DNA of 32,179 bases from Nitrospirota bacterium (lineage in GTDB: Bacteria; Nitrospirota; Thermodesulfovibrionia; UBA6902; DSMQ01). The notes under the pieces were generated by a model that had not been told where the DNA came from, searched no databases, and worked only from the letters and a program-made list of their open reading frames with translations. The stretch covers positions 1 through 32,179 of the forward strand of contig JACROO010000045.1 in assembly GCA_016214355.1 (NCBI GenBank), in the 5' to 3' direction. The position numbers and the translations under genes were made by a program. This document shows, piece by piece, positions 724-31,194 of this stretch. Position 1 is the first letter of the stretch. Every line of letters begins with the position of its first letter.

Positions 724-1941
724 TTGCTTATTGTCCAGAAATACGGCGGGACATCTGTTGCTGATACTAAAAGGATTAAGGCTGTTGCAAGGCGTGTAGT
801 GGAAACTGCGAAAAACGGCAATAAGGTCGTTGTGGTTGTCTCAGCCATGGCTGGTGAGACGGACAAATTGATAAACCTTGCCCATAAAGTTTCGTCTACG
901 CCAAAGGAAAGGGAAATGGACATGCTCCTTTCCTCAGGCGAACGTATTACCGCTGCACTTACAGCAATAGCAATTGAAGAGTTAGGACACAAGGCAATTG
1001 CGCTCACAGGCAGGCAGATGGGTATAATAACTGATACGGTTCACACAAAGGCAAAGATTGAAAAAATCACAGGAGAAAAGGCAAAAAAAGCACTTGACGA
1101 GGGTTATGTAATTGTTGTTGCGGGCTTTCAGGGAATAACAGAGGATGACGATGTCACAACCCTCGGCAGGGGAGGCTCTGACCTTTCTGCTGTTGCAATT
1201 GCCTCGGCACTGGATGCAGATTTATGCGAGATTTATACAGACGTTGACGGCGTTTATACAACAGACCCCAATATTGTTCCCGAGGCTAAAAAACTGGATA
1301 AAATCTCTTTTGAGGAAATGCTTGAACTTGCAAGTCTCGGCGCAAAGGTGCTTCAGACAAGGTCTGTGGAGTTTGCCATGAAATATAAAATGCCTGTGGT
1401 CGTAAGGTCAAGCTTTAATAATAATCCGGGGACGCTTGTTACTAAGGAGGATAAGGATATGGAAAAAATTATGGTCGCTGGAATCACCTATGATAAAAAC
1501 CAGGGCAAGATTACCATAATGGGAGTACCTGACAGGCCTGGTATTGCCGCGAAGCTCTTTAAAAAAATTGCAGATGCAGATATAGTCGTTGACATGATTG
1601 TCCAGAATGTAAGCAGCGACGGCAAGGCTACGGACATATCGTTTACCGTGCCAAAAACCGATTGTAAAAAGGCGCTTGAATTGACAAACGAAATATTGAA
1701 AGAATTAGACGCAAAAGGCGTTACCATGAGGGACGATATAGCTAAGGTATCAATCGTCGGTGTCGGCATGAGGACTCACTCCGGAGTAGCGGCGATGATG
1801 TTTGAAACGCTGGCAAAGCACGGCATCAACATAATGGCAATCAGCACGTCAGAAATAAAGATTTCATGCCTTATAGAAACAAAATATACAGAACTTGCTG
1901 TAAGGGTTTTGCACGAGACTTTCGGGGTCGGTGAGAGGTAA
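724..1941 (+). CDS. lysC: Aspartate kinase
   Basis: TTG start; [22 protein letters not shown], two C-terminal ACT domains ([27 protein letters not shown]). Confidence 0.97.
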
Positions 1942-1957
1942 AATAATTCTTAATACT

Positions 1958-3520
1958 ATGCGTTTTATTGAAATTTACGATACAACGCTGAGGGACGGGG
2001 CACAATCAGAGGATATTGCATTCTCTGTTGAAGACAAGCTGAGGATTGCCGGAAAACTTGATGAGCTTGGGGTTCATTATATTGAAGGCGGCTGGCCCAG
2101 CGCTAATCCTAAAGACACAGAGTTTTTCCGCAAAATGCGCAAAGTCAAGCTAAAGACCTCAAAGATAGTCGCCTTTGGCTCTACACATCATCCCGCACGC
2201 AAAGTTAGTAATGACCAGAATATAAAAGCCCTGTTAGATGCAGGCACAGCCATTGTTACTATATTCGGAAAAACATGGGACTTTCATGTAAAAGAGGCAT
2301 TGAGAATCTCACTCTCAGCAAACCTTGATCTGATTCATAACTCTATTGCCTATATTAAAAAACATGTCCAGAAAGTTTTTTTTGATGCAGAGCATTTTTT
2401 TTTTTTTTTTTAAACAAACCCCGAATATGCCTTCAAGGCATTAGAATCTGCAGTTATTGCGGGCGCAGACTGTCTTGTCCTCTGCGATACAAACGGCGGT
2501 ACATTGCCCCAGGAGATAGAAGATATAGAGAGAAAGACATTAAAAAAGCTTAGGATACCTGTAGGTATCCATGCTCATAATGATGCCGAGTGTGCTGTTG
2601 CAAATTCTATTGTCGCCGTAAAACTCGGCGCCTCGCAGGTGCAGGGAACAATAAACGGTTTAGGAGAGCGATGCGGCAATGCCAATCTTATTTCAGTCAT
2701 CCCAAACTTAAAGTTAAAACTTAAATATAACTGCATAACCGATGAACAATTAAAGAAATTAAAAGATGCATCAAGGTTTGTAACAGAGCTCGCCAACTTA
2801 AGGCATTTTAAAAGACAGCCATATGTGGGAGACAGCGCCTTTGCACATAAAGGGGGCATTCATGTCAGCGCCATTTTAAGGCATCCGGAGACCTATGAGC
2901 ATGTAAGACCGGAGCTTATCGGTAACTCCCAGCGGGTGCTCATTTCAGACCTTGCCGGTAAAAGCAATATCCTCAGAAAGGCTAAAGAAATAGGTATTCG
3001 TTTGGACGCTGACTCCCCTAAGCTGCAGGGTATTCTGAACAAATTAAAAAAATTAGAACATCAGGGTTTTCAGTTTGAAGGCGCAGAAGCGTCCTTTGAA
3101 CTCCTTCTAAAAAAAGAGCTTGGACTTTACAGAAAATTCTTTAACCTGCTTGGAGTCAGAGTTATAGTAGAAGAGAAAAGACAGCATGGCGTGCCTGTTG
3201 AAGCGACAGTAATGCTTAAACTGCCTGACAGACGCATTGAGCATACTGCTGCGATTGGGAATGGTCCTGTAAATGCACTTGATAATGCCCTTAGAAAGGC
3301 ACTTGAAAAATTCTATCCCCAGCTTAAAAAAGTAGAGCTTATTGATTACAAGGTAAGGGTCCTTGAAGCCGGCATAGGAACATCAGCAAGGGTGAGGGTC
3401 TTAATAGAATCAGGTGACGACACGCATAAATGGGGAACAGTGGGGGTATCTGAAAATATAATAGAAGCTTCATGGCAGGCGCTTGTGGACAGCATTGAAT
3501 ATAAGCTTCTGCGGGGATAA
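1958..3520 (+). pseudogene. cimA: Citramalate synthase, interrupted by an in-frame TAA (2411-2413) at the end of a 17-nt poly-T run
   Basis: ORFs 1931..2413 and 2504..3520 are in the same frame. IEIYDTTLRDGAQSEDIAFSVEDKLRIAGKLDELGVHYIEGGWP ... [17 protein letters not shown] ... [15 protein letters not shown]. Confidence 0.9.
2395..2411. repeat. 17-nt poly-T homopolymer inside cimA
   Basis: Direct reading: cat + T17 + aaacaaacccc. Confidence 0.98.
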
Positions 3521-4279: not shown

Positions 4280-6242
4280 ATGGTAAATTTTGACATTGAG
4301 AAAATCAGAAACGTTGCAGTAATTGCACACGCAGGAGCAGGGAAGACCTCACTGGTTGAAGCTATGCTTTTTAATTCAAAGGCTGTAGACCGCCTTGGAA
4401 AAATCATAGAAGGCAATACAACCACCGACTACGAACCCGAGGAGATAAACCGTAAATTTTCAATTTCTTCAGCCCTTGCATTTTGTGAATGGAATGGTCA
4501 CAAGATCAATATCATTGACACGCCCGGATATATAAATTTTTTGGAAGACACAAAATCCTGCCTTTCTGCTGTTGACGGTGCCGTTGTCATAGTAAGCGCA
4601 TTATCAGGGGTAAAGACTGAAACAGAGAAGGTCTGGCAATATGCAAATAAGCATGAGCTTCCCAAAATAGTATTTGTCAATAAAATGGACAGAGAAAACG
4701 CCAATTTCAGCACAGCATTGAACGAACTTGAAAAAACCTTCGGCGCAAATGTAATACCTTTAAATATACCTATCGGCTCTGGGGACAGCTTTGAGGGTGT
4801 TATAGATATACTTGATATGAAGGCTGTTAAATTTCAGAATGGGAACCCCTCAAAAGCAGAAATCCCCGATGAACTTAAACCGGAGGCTGAGGAATACAGA
4901 AAGAAGCTCGTTGAAAAAATTGCTGAATCAGACGACTCCCTGCTTGAAAGATACCTTGAGGGCCATACCTTCTCCGGCTGAAAAGTCGGACATCACGCCG
5001 ATAAAGGGAACAAACCCGAAAAGCAAAGATGAAGTTACAAGAAAACCTCTGGATACTGAACCCCTCTCAGCGTTGGTATTCAAGACTATTGCTGACCCCT
5101 TTGCAGGCAGGCTTACACTTTTCAGGGTCTTCTCCGGGGTCATGAAGGCTGACTCCACCGTCTACAACTCTGCACGCGGCAGCAAGGAAAGGGTAGGACA
5201 AATTTTTTATCTTATGGGGAAAAAACAGGTGCCTGCTCAAAAAGTTGGCCCGGGTGAAATTGCAGCGGTGGCTAAACTAAAGGATGCCCTTACAGGCGAT
5301 ACCCTTACTGATCATGATAAGCCTGTGCTTTTTGAACCTGTTAAATTCGCTGACCCGATGATTTCTTATGCCATTGCACCCAAAAGCAGAGGGGACGAAG
5401 ATAAAGTAAGCATAGGACTCCATAGAATGCTTGAGGAAGACCCTACTCTTAAATTTCATCGTGATACTGAAACCAAGGATATGATTCTCTCGGGAATGGG
5501 TCAGATGCACCTTGAGATTACACTTGAAAGATTAAAAAGAAAGTTTGGGGTTGAGGTATTGATGAAGGCCCCGAAGATTCCTTATAAAGAAACGATTAAA
5601 ACCACTGCGAAGGCTCAGGGCAGATATAAAAGGCAGTCAGGCGGTAAAGGGCAGTACGGTGACTGCTGGATAGAAATAGAGCCGCTGCCTAAAGGCGGAG
5701 GGTTTGAATTTGTAGATAAGATAGTCGGCGGTGCAATACCCCGTCAATATATCCCTGCAATTGAAAAAGGCATTGTAGAAGCCATGCATGAAGGCATACT
5801 GGCAGGCTATCCTGTGGTTGACCTCAGGGTAACTGTTTACGATGGTTCGTATCACACGGTTGATTCTTCGGAGATGGCATTTAAGATAGCCGGTTCTTTA
5901 GCCATAAAAAAGGCTACGCAGAACGCAAAACTTGTCCTGCTTGAGCCGATTCTAAAGGCTGAAGTAATAGCTTCTGATGAATTTTTAGGCAGTGTAATAG
6001 GTGACCTTAACGGGAGGCGTGGAAAGGTTCAGGGTGTTGAATCTCAGGCAGGCGGCAACCAGAGAATCACAGTACTTGTCCCGATGGCGGAGATGCTGAC
6101 ATATGCAAATCAGCTTAATTCCCTGACCAGCGGACGCGGTATGTACACCGCAGAGTTTTCTCACTACGAAGAAGTTCCGTCTCACCTTGCGCAGAAAATT
6201 GTAGCTGAAAAGGCAGCTGCAAAGAAAGGAGAGGAAGATTAA
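4280..6242 (+). pseudogene. Elongation factor G-like GTPase, broken by an internal deletion and frameshift near nt 4960
   Basis: ORF 4280..4981 (IRNVAVIAHAGAGKTSLVEAMLF...DTPGYINF...NKMDRENANF) and the out-of-frame ORF ending at 6242 (PSPAEKSDITPIKGTNPKSKDEVTRKP...ALVFKTIADPFAGRLTLFRVFSG) together form an EF-G-like protein lacking the segment between LLERYLEG and PSPAE. Confidence 0.9.
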
Positions 6243-13240: not shown

Positions 13241-13334
13241 CTCACTTAAAGTTTAAAAATAAAAAAGCAAAATTGCAAATGAACCACCCTGCGGCAGAGA
13301 CTGTAGGGCATCTAAAAAATTTATTTTGTTAGCT

Positions 13335-13495
13335 GTCATTCCTGCGGAAGTCTATGACCCGTGCCTATGGCTCGGAGCCAACGGCTCATAGAGGGTCACG
13401 ACCCATAGGGCAGGAATCCAGAAAAAACAAAAGACTGGATTCTCTACGAGTCATAGACCGCATCTCTACGAGTCGTAGGCAAGTGCGGAATGACG
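13335..13495. repeat. Composite nested palindrome upstream of smc
   Basis: GTCATTCCTGCGGAAG (13335-13350) + ~59-nt internal palindromic block (13351-13409) + GCAGGAATCCAG (13410-13421), then CTGGATTC...GTGCGGAATGAC. The 24.47 kb copy reads GTCATTCCTGCGGAAGCAGGAATCCA with no block. Confidence 0.85.
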
Positions 13496-24464: not shown

Positions 24465-24552
24465 TGTCATTCCTGCGGAAGCAGGAATCCATGGCTTTGT
24501 CATGCTGAATTTATTTCAGCATCTCTGTATTCCCGCCTTAGCGGGAATGACA
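24465..24552. repeat. Nested palindromic repeat between DUF362 and the GHMP/UDPGP gene
   Basis: TGTCATTCCTGCGGAAGCAGGAATCCA ... ATGCTGAA-TTTAT-TTCAGCAT ... ATTCCCGCCTTAGCGGGAATGACA. Confidence 0.92.
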
Positions 24553-30409: not shown

Positions 30410-30450
30410 CCCCTATAGATTCTTTCAGAATCTAAACACAGGGATAGATA
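30410..30450. mobile_element. 41-nt hairpin insertion in the recombinase gene
   Basis: CCCCTAT-AG-ATTCT-TTC-AGAAT-CT-AAAC-ACAGGG + atagata. Confidence 0.7.
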
Positions 30451-30480
30451 TATCTTGAGTCCTTTGCTGAAAGGGAAGGG

Positions 30481-30560
30481 CACCCCCATGGTTTTGATAC
30501 CCGTAGTTTTCCTTATGGAAAACATAGCACGGGTACAGGACAAAACAAAATATGGGGACG
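30481..30560. mobile_element. 80-nt nested hairpin insertion in the recombinase gene
   Basis: Outer CCCCAT-G-GTTTTG...CAAAAC-AAAAT-ATGGGG containing inner TACCCGT-AG-TTTTCC-TTAT-GGAAAA-C-ATAGC-ACGGGTA. Confidence 0.7.
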
Positions 30561-30668
30561 TATGAGATTTATAAAATCTATCAGGATGATGGGATAAGCG
30601 GCTATTCTACCGAACGTCCTGCTTTTTAATTAAAACCCTTGCTCAAATATTGTAAAATATCTGTTACC

Positions 30669-30959
30669 ATGAGTTTTAAACGTAATGCTGTGTTTTTCGT
30701 ATATATCGTTAAATGTGCTAACGGAACATATTACACCGGTTACACAAATAATCTCGAGAACCGAATCAAACTACACAATAAAGGGGATGGCGCAAAGTAT
30801 TTAAAAGGAAAGTTGCCGGTCCAGTTGGTTTATGCTAAAGAATATAAATATTATAAAAATGCGTTGCATGCTGAGAGGAATTTAAAGAAGTTGACTAGGA
30901 AAGAGAAGGAGGTATTAATTTCGAACTATGAGCGCACAAATGGAAATTTATCCCTATAG
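30669..30959 (+). CDS. GIY-YIG nuclease superfamily protein (UPF0213/YhbQ-like)
   Basis: VYIVKCANGTYYTGYTNNLENRIKLHNKGDGAKYLKGKLPVQLVYAKEYKYYKNALHAERNLKKLTRKEKEVLI; the stop TAG is supplied by the downstream hairpin. Confidence 0.92.
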   Translation: MSFKRNAVFFVYIVKCANGTYYTGYTNNLENRIKLHNKGDGAKYLKGKLPVQLVYAKEYKYYKNALHAERNLKKLTRKEKEVLISNYERTNGNLSL

Positions 30960-30985
30960 ATTCATTCTGAATCTATACATAGGGA
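30951..30985. repeat. Bulged hairpin E
   Basis: TCCCTAT-AG-ATTC-ATTCT-GAAT-CT-ATAC-ATAGGGA. Confidence 0.85.
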
Positions 30986-31002
30986 TTAGAAAAAAAGGTT
31001 GC

Positions 31003-31038
31003 CCCCGTAGTTTTGCTATTGCAAAACTGGACACGGGG
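31003..31038. repeat. Bulged hairpin A
   Basis: CCCCGT-AG-TTTTGC-TATT-GCAAAA-CT-GGAC-ACGGGG. Confidence 0.9.
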
Positions 31039-31098
31039 ACACCCATGTCTAAGTTTTCAGGTGGTATTTTATGAGATACTACTCCAGAATGTTTAGGT

Positions 31099-31139
31099 GC
31101 TCCCACAGATTTGCCGCTGCAAATCTAGGACGTGGGAGC
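31099..31139. repeat. Bulged hairpin B
   Basis: GCTCCCAC-AG-ATTTGC-CGCT-GCAAAT-CT-AGGAC-GTGGGAGC. Confidence 0.9.
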
Positions 31140-31194
31140 AACCGTGTCCAGGTTTTGAGGAAAATATGAAATATTTTCTCAAAACCTACGGTTG
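31139..31194. repeat. Bulged hairpin F overlapping the miaB start (opposite orientation)
   Basis: CAACCGT-GTCC-AG-GTTTTGAGGAAAATAT-gaa-ATATTTTCTCAAAAC-CT-ACGGTTG. Confidence 0.9.

Follow-up and report, generated by a model that had tools for sequence, protein, structure and literature searches.

The window, by which we mean the whole stretch of 32,179 nt analyzed here, corresponds to contig C37 of an assembly of 1.85 Mb and 85% completeness. The SMC protein encoded in the window has its closest named relatives in MAGs of the class Thermodesulfovibrionia / Nitrospirae. Upstream of smc, positions 13335–13495 are a 69-nt head-to-head dimer of CGTC-tagged REPs together with four inserts totaling 92 nt. 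The parts of this dimer, and the second dimer of the window, are as follows.

13335–13350, plus strand: left arm of REP hairpin 1, with the TGTC tag from 13334, stem ATTCCTGC and loop GGAA (anatomy after PMC3733652)
13351–13363, plus strand: left part of unit A, TCTATGACCCGTG (A is found uninterrupted in G047, G072 and six further genomes)
13364–13392, minus strand: unit N nested in A, TCTATGAGCCGTTGGCTCCGAGCCATAGG (independent copies in, e.g., G072, G013 and G009)
13393–13410, plus strand: right part of unit A, (G)GGTCACGACCCATAGGG
13411–13421, plus strand: right arm of REP hairpin 1 and CCA tail, CAGGAATCCAG
13422–13434, plus strand: spacer separating both REP hairpins, read from the sequence
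13435–13442, minus strand: outer part of REP hairpin 2, CTGGATTC, identical in L026, an empty dimer elsewhere in this genome
13443–13458, plus strand: first copy of unit S, TCTACGAGTCATAGAC, which interrupts the REP stem between GATTC and CGCA (same insertion in L157, absent from L016 and L026)
13459–13464, minus strand: CGCATC, which completes the left arm of REP hairpin 2 and forms part of its loop
13465–13480, plus strand: second copy of unit S, TCTACGAGTCGTAGGC, located between TC and AAG at the apex of REP hairpin 2
13481–13495, minus strand: right arm of REP hairpin 2, AAGTGCGGAATGAC, and CGTC tag
24466–24551, plus strand: the window's other REP dimer, whose hairpin 1 has an empty apex; it served as the paralogous reference

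The carrier dimer and its inserts

Excision of N (30 nt), A (30 nt) and the two S units (16 nt each) from 13335–13495 restores the canonical 69-nt dimer GTCATTCCTGCGGAAGCAGGAATCCAGAAAAAACAAAAGACTGGATTCCGCATCAAGTGCGGAATGACG, whose first hairpin is that of the empty copy at 24.47 kb and whose right half is identical to the dimer L026 elsewhere in the genome. The hairpins of the insert-free dimer read ATTCCTGC-GGAA-GCAGGAAT-CCA and ATTCCGCA-CTTGA-TGCGGAAT-CCA, with terminal tags TGTC at 13334–13337 and CGTC at 13492–13495 (minus strand). CGTC-REPs, a superfamily that takes in dRS3 of Neisseria and RPE-4 and RPE-6 of Rickettsia, are characterized by a CGTC, TGTC or CCTC terminal motif, an 8–9 bp stem starting from AT, a loop of 4–5, a CCA tail and an arrangement in mostly head-to-head dimers, and a dedicated transposase is not known for them (Di Nocera et al. 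2013, PMC3733652). Without its inserts, the copy upstream of smc fits every one of these features, having a TGTC and a CGTC tag, 8-bp AT-start stems, loops of 4 and 5, CCA tails and the head-to-head layout of a multi-copy dimer. It differs in that the published loops measure 4–5 bp with few exceptions (PMC3733652), whereas the loops and the stem here hold separate mobile units of 16–30 nt. The genome holds 37 occurrences of the pattern GTCATTCCYGC versus 4 of the reversed pattern, and these 37 REP half-sites mostly form facing hairpin pairs within ~100 nt, GTCATTCC..GGAATCCAG / CTGGATTCC..GGAATGAC.

The initial annotation had described a block of about 59 nt inserted at the apex of a GTCATTCC repeat, had pointed to an empty paralogous copy and had suspected more insertions in the right half. 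The insertion at the apex was recovered, with GTCATTCCTGCGGAAG at 13335–13350 and GCAGGAATCCAG ending at 13421, as was the empty site, GTCATTCCTGCGGAAGCAGGAATCCA at 24466–24491, and the right half does hold further insertions, namely the two S units. The block itself is present, but its length is 60 nt, because the filled site has GG where the empty site has one G, and it consists of two nested units, A and N, not one. Unit A (30 nt, TCTATGACCCGTGGGTCACGACCCATAGGG) entered the loop of REP hairpin 1 directly 3' of AAG, and N was put into A in the opposite orientation; the insertion of N amounts to 30 nt counting one flanking base, which is ambiguous (e.g. 13393), the unit itself being 29–30 nt. 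Both copies of unit S (16 nt, TCTAYGAGTCRTAGRC) were inserted after C in REP hairpin 2.

Units S, A and N within and beyond this genome

The three units share their ends, starting with TCTAYGA and finishing with RTAGR; each is also found on its own in many contexts, and they nest within each other. N lies inside A in the window, while the converse, A inside N, occurs in G007 (L126) and, with a variant of A, in G047 (L300). This reciprocal nesting means that the units are separable. In addition, S was found inside an N relative in G007 (L317) and inside S at several loci, including L262 of this genome and L277. Variants of A and N retain the fold CTATG-ASC-CGTG-GST-CACG-ASC-CATAG, whose inner stem alternates between CGTG/CACG and CGTTG/CAACG, so that both sides change; the C-or-G position of ASC, GST and ASC co-varies between A and N. 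The letters of N can pair in two alternative ways. One gives the layout of AG/CT with a 3' bulge, and the relatives of N speak for a symmetric fold, S1-ASC-CGT(T)G-GST-C(A)ACG-ASC-S1'.

Copy numbers of S range from 0 to 49 across the relatives, with 11 copies in this genome and 38–49 in G009 and G013 (the maximum of 49 being in G013), and the unit is present in 14 of 61 genomes, with a reversed-pattern control of 0 in nearly all. Unit A was detected in 8 of 396 Nitrospirota genomes, all belonging to one class, and N-type units in 11 of 111; A without N occupies the same REP apex position in G047 and G072. A viral or plasmid origin was considered and rejected: A had no match in IMG/VR, the plasmid and phage searches gave no match, and the 27 matches of S in IMG/VR are fewer than the rough chance expectation for a 16-mer there.

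Filled and empty sites were also compared. A REP-A composite lies 3' of a radC-like gene in G047 (L128) and is absent at the orthologous site of G050 (L341), and among near-identical paralogues in this genome L017 is filled with a unit termed C, while L003/L001 are empty with the loop GAAA. No orthologous sites were found at which S, A or N alone differed while the REP was kept. A gap-pattern search, some matches of which are coding or tandem REPs, gave long REP apices in 112 of 200 relatives, with three recurring apex families, A, B (CTTGTCC..GGGGA) and C (CCCCGTATCAAGTACGGGGTAAACTCCA). The expectation that other copies of the repeat would carry structured apex contents was borne out, since 18 of 46 distinct contents have a hairpin of their own at p < 0.05 and A, B and C recur. 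Unit C was observed in L012, L017, L028 and many relatives, and itself carries nested inserts in G047:C17 and G056:C81.

Insertion targets and the proposed mobility

At 74 distinct sites of S, the upstream flank carries C at −1 in 71, C at −4 in 49 and C/T at −3 in 65, while the 3' flank is nearly random. C precedes N at −1 in 23/23 sites, and G precedes A at −1 in 21/21, mostly after AA. The target is thus one-sided, C-Y-N-C for S and N and AAG for A. Any target-site duplication, the feature looked for as a sign of a MITE of a DDE transposase, does not exceed 1 bp, being C..C in S and N and G..G in A, with exceptions both ways. A lies at the apex of hairpins with stems ≥7 bp in 9/23 cases versus 0.5% in controls. 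Apex-directed insertion of S was rejected, the observed 10/81 standing against 5.6% in controls and some of the cases being S-in-S. Apex insertion is therefore not a general rule, as S follows a short target motif. S is intergenic in 35/39 cases, a fraction that is approximate because the ORF calls there are mechanical. We also observed S or N directly at the 3' end of tRNA-Ser or tRNA-Leu genes (L282, L228), and an N or S unit at the D-loop position of truncated 5' tRNA halves (L319, L320, L327, L300 and L264); a complete tRNA comes after the truncated half in L319, L320 and L327, and a GIY-YIG-like ORF seems to come after it in L319 and L300.

Insertion of small mobile units is very likely what produced this arrangement, and we consider it probable that the dimer upstream of smc took up four very small non-autonomous mobile palindromes that moved in trans at the DNA level. 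Under this model, S, A and N would be mobilized by an enzyme that recognizes the hairpin and joins it 3' of the short one-strand target (C-Y-N-C or AAG), leaving no target duplication or a single-base one. Other palindromes would be preferred landing places, because their single-stranded loops are exposed and the target is contained in them. From the one-sided short targets, the lack of a clear duplication, the hairpin form of the units and their insertion into hairpins, we infer tentatively a single-strand DNA chemistry of the HUH type, which might resemble that of the HUH/Y1 transposases of REPs and IS200/IS605; an HUH-like mover is a possible candidate only. RAYT/Y1 as a neighbor of the units was rejected, since neither S nor A nor N flanks any of the 30 Y1/RAYT loci examined. 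The number of S copies correlates weakly with that of Y1 genes (rho 0.33, not corrected for phylogeny), and no enzyme could be tied to the units. Several Y1/RAYT loci bear inverted repeats of their own, such as TAGGGACACATCCCATA, between which the near-identical RAYT-like Y1 genes of L187 and L188 are located.

Spread of the composite as a whole (REP + A or REP + S) by recombination or REP transposition, with fresh insertion of the small units being rare, is an unlikely account of the data. It agrees with the 19 of 23 A sites that lie in REP-like apices and with the many near-identical REP-A composites in G047, and many A copies may owe their spread to that of their REP and not to fresh insertion. 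However, A also occupies non-REP sites, in the GGTCAAG repeats L121 and L129, in L124 and inside N in L126 and L300, S has 74 distinct flanks, and N is mostly outside REPs.

Insertion at the RNA level, in which a hairpin RNA would reverse-splice into transcript loops and then be copied back, has been suggested for mitochondrial double-hairpin elements. For those elements an RNA intermediate is proposed, and no flanking duplications are reported in Allomyces (PMC2800124; Paquin et al. 2000). Like S, A and N, the mitochondrial double-hairpin or repetitive hairpin-forming elements are small hairpins, located between genes and within genes for structured RNAs (PMC2800124). The positions of the present units in hairpin loops, at tRNA 3' ends and in the D-loops of truncated tRNA copies would suit such a route, as would the lack of a clear target duplication. 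The mitochondrial elements differ in being organellar, and S shows no bias with respect to the transcribed strand (12 copies in the same orientation versus 13 opposite), making RNA-strand-dependent insertion unlikely; moreover, the flanks of S carry a short, one-sided target of DNA style. Taken together, we judge an RNA route for the present units improbable.

Template switching at stalled forks, creating new palindromes at hairpin apices with no mobile unit involved, would account for the co-changing arms of REPs and of A/N variants, yet it is very unlikely, as the same 16–30 nt sequences with fixed ends recur across unrelated contexts and genera. That the region acts as a conserved structured RNA or regulates smc is even harder to uphold. 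The region folds strongly compared with dinucleotide shuffles (z = −6.0 on the plus and −8.0 on the minus strand, with 0/200 shuffles equal) and lies between the upstream gene and smc; nevertheless, 13335–13495 has no match in Rfam, the whole dimer is absent upstream of smc in G003 (L059), no copy at the same place was found in the other relatives scanned, and the same units occur near unrelated genes.

Known systems share some features with these small palindromes. The cyanobacterial small dispersed repeats that Elhai and colleagues described in 2008 are reportedly palindromic and non-autonomous, 21–27 nt long and have no known mover. They resemble S, A and N in size class, hairpin form, dispersion and insertion into other repeats, and differ in belonging to another phylum and in that S, with 16 nt, is shorter. 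GTAG-REPs/REPINs with RAYT are likewise short palindromes thought to be moved by Y1 (PMC3116915, PMC3733652), but S, A and N have no unpaired GTAG tag (GTAG is inside the stem of S) and do not flank RAYT genes here. IS elements inserting into REPs (Tobes and Pareja 2006, as cited in PMC3116915) also use REP palindromes as targets, while the inserts here are gene-less palindromes of 16–30 nt. As far as our searches reach, the carrier is already known and the nested set of very small palindromes is undescribed in the literature searched.

It is possible that these units belong to a superfamily of 16–30 nt palindromes with shared ends, so far confined to Thermodesulfovibrionia, which insert recursively into themselves and into other palindromes via a dedicated, hitherto undescribed single-strand hairpin-joining activity. 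If true, this would place S among the smallest DNA units known to move independently. Three families with shared ends and readable targets provide a defined substrate and target for candidate enzymes of CGTC-REPs and tiny palindromes, and the nested record of events indicates that complex palindromic intergenic regions can arise by successive small insertions.

The hairpins at 30–31 kb and other window genes

The initial annotation had linked the block upstream of smc to the hairpins at 30–31 kb through a common layout of AG/CT with a 3' bulge. A covariance model (R1) built from these five hairpins matched only the same five genome-wide at E < 0.001, all of them within the window at 30.4–31.1 kb, and they show covariation. 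The block (13364–13409, minus strand) scored at chance under this model, with 9.3 bits, E = 5 and rank 16 in the window, and the proposed link did not survive. Although one possible fold of N has AG..CT with a 3' bulge, membership of the block in that class can practically be dismissed, given this score and the restriction of the class to five local hairpins in the genome. The 30–31 kb hairpins are a real local family, separate from the block upstream of smc. They are double hairpins (CCC..AG..CT..NNAC..GGG) located at 30411–31140 around a GIY-YIG ORF (30639–30959), and they apparently break up a serine-recombinase-like reading frame.

Elsewhere in the window, genes resembling citramalate/isopropylmalate synthase (1931–3520) and EF-G (4280–6242) by sequence are each split over two frames, one of them being broken at a homopolymer run, which reflects either assembly error or pseudogenes.
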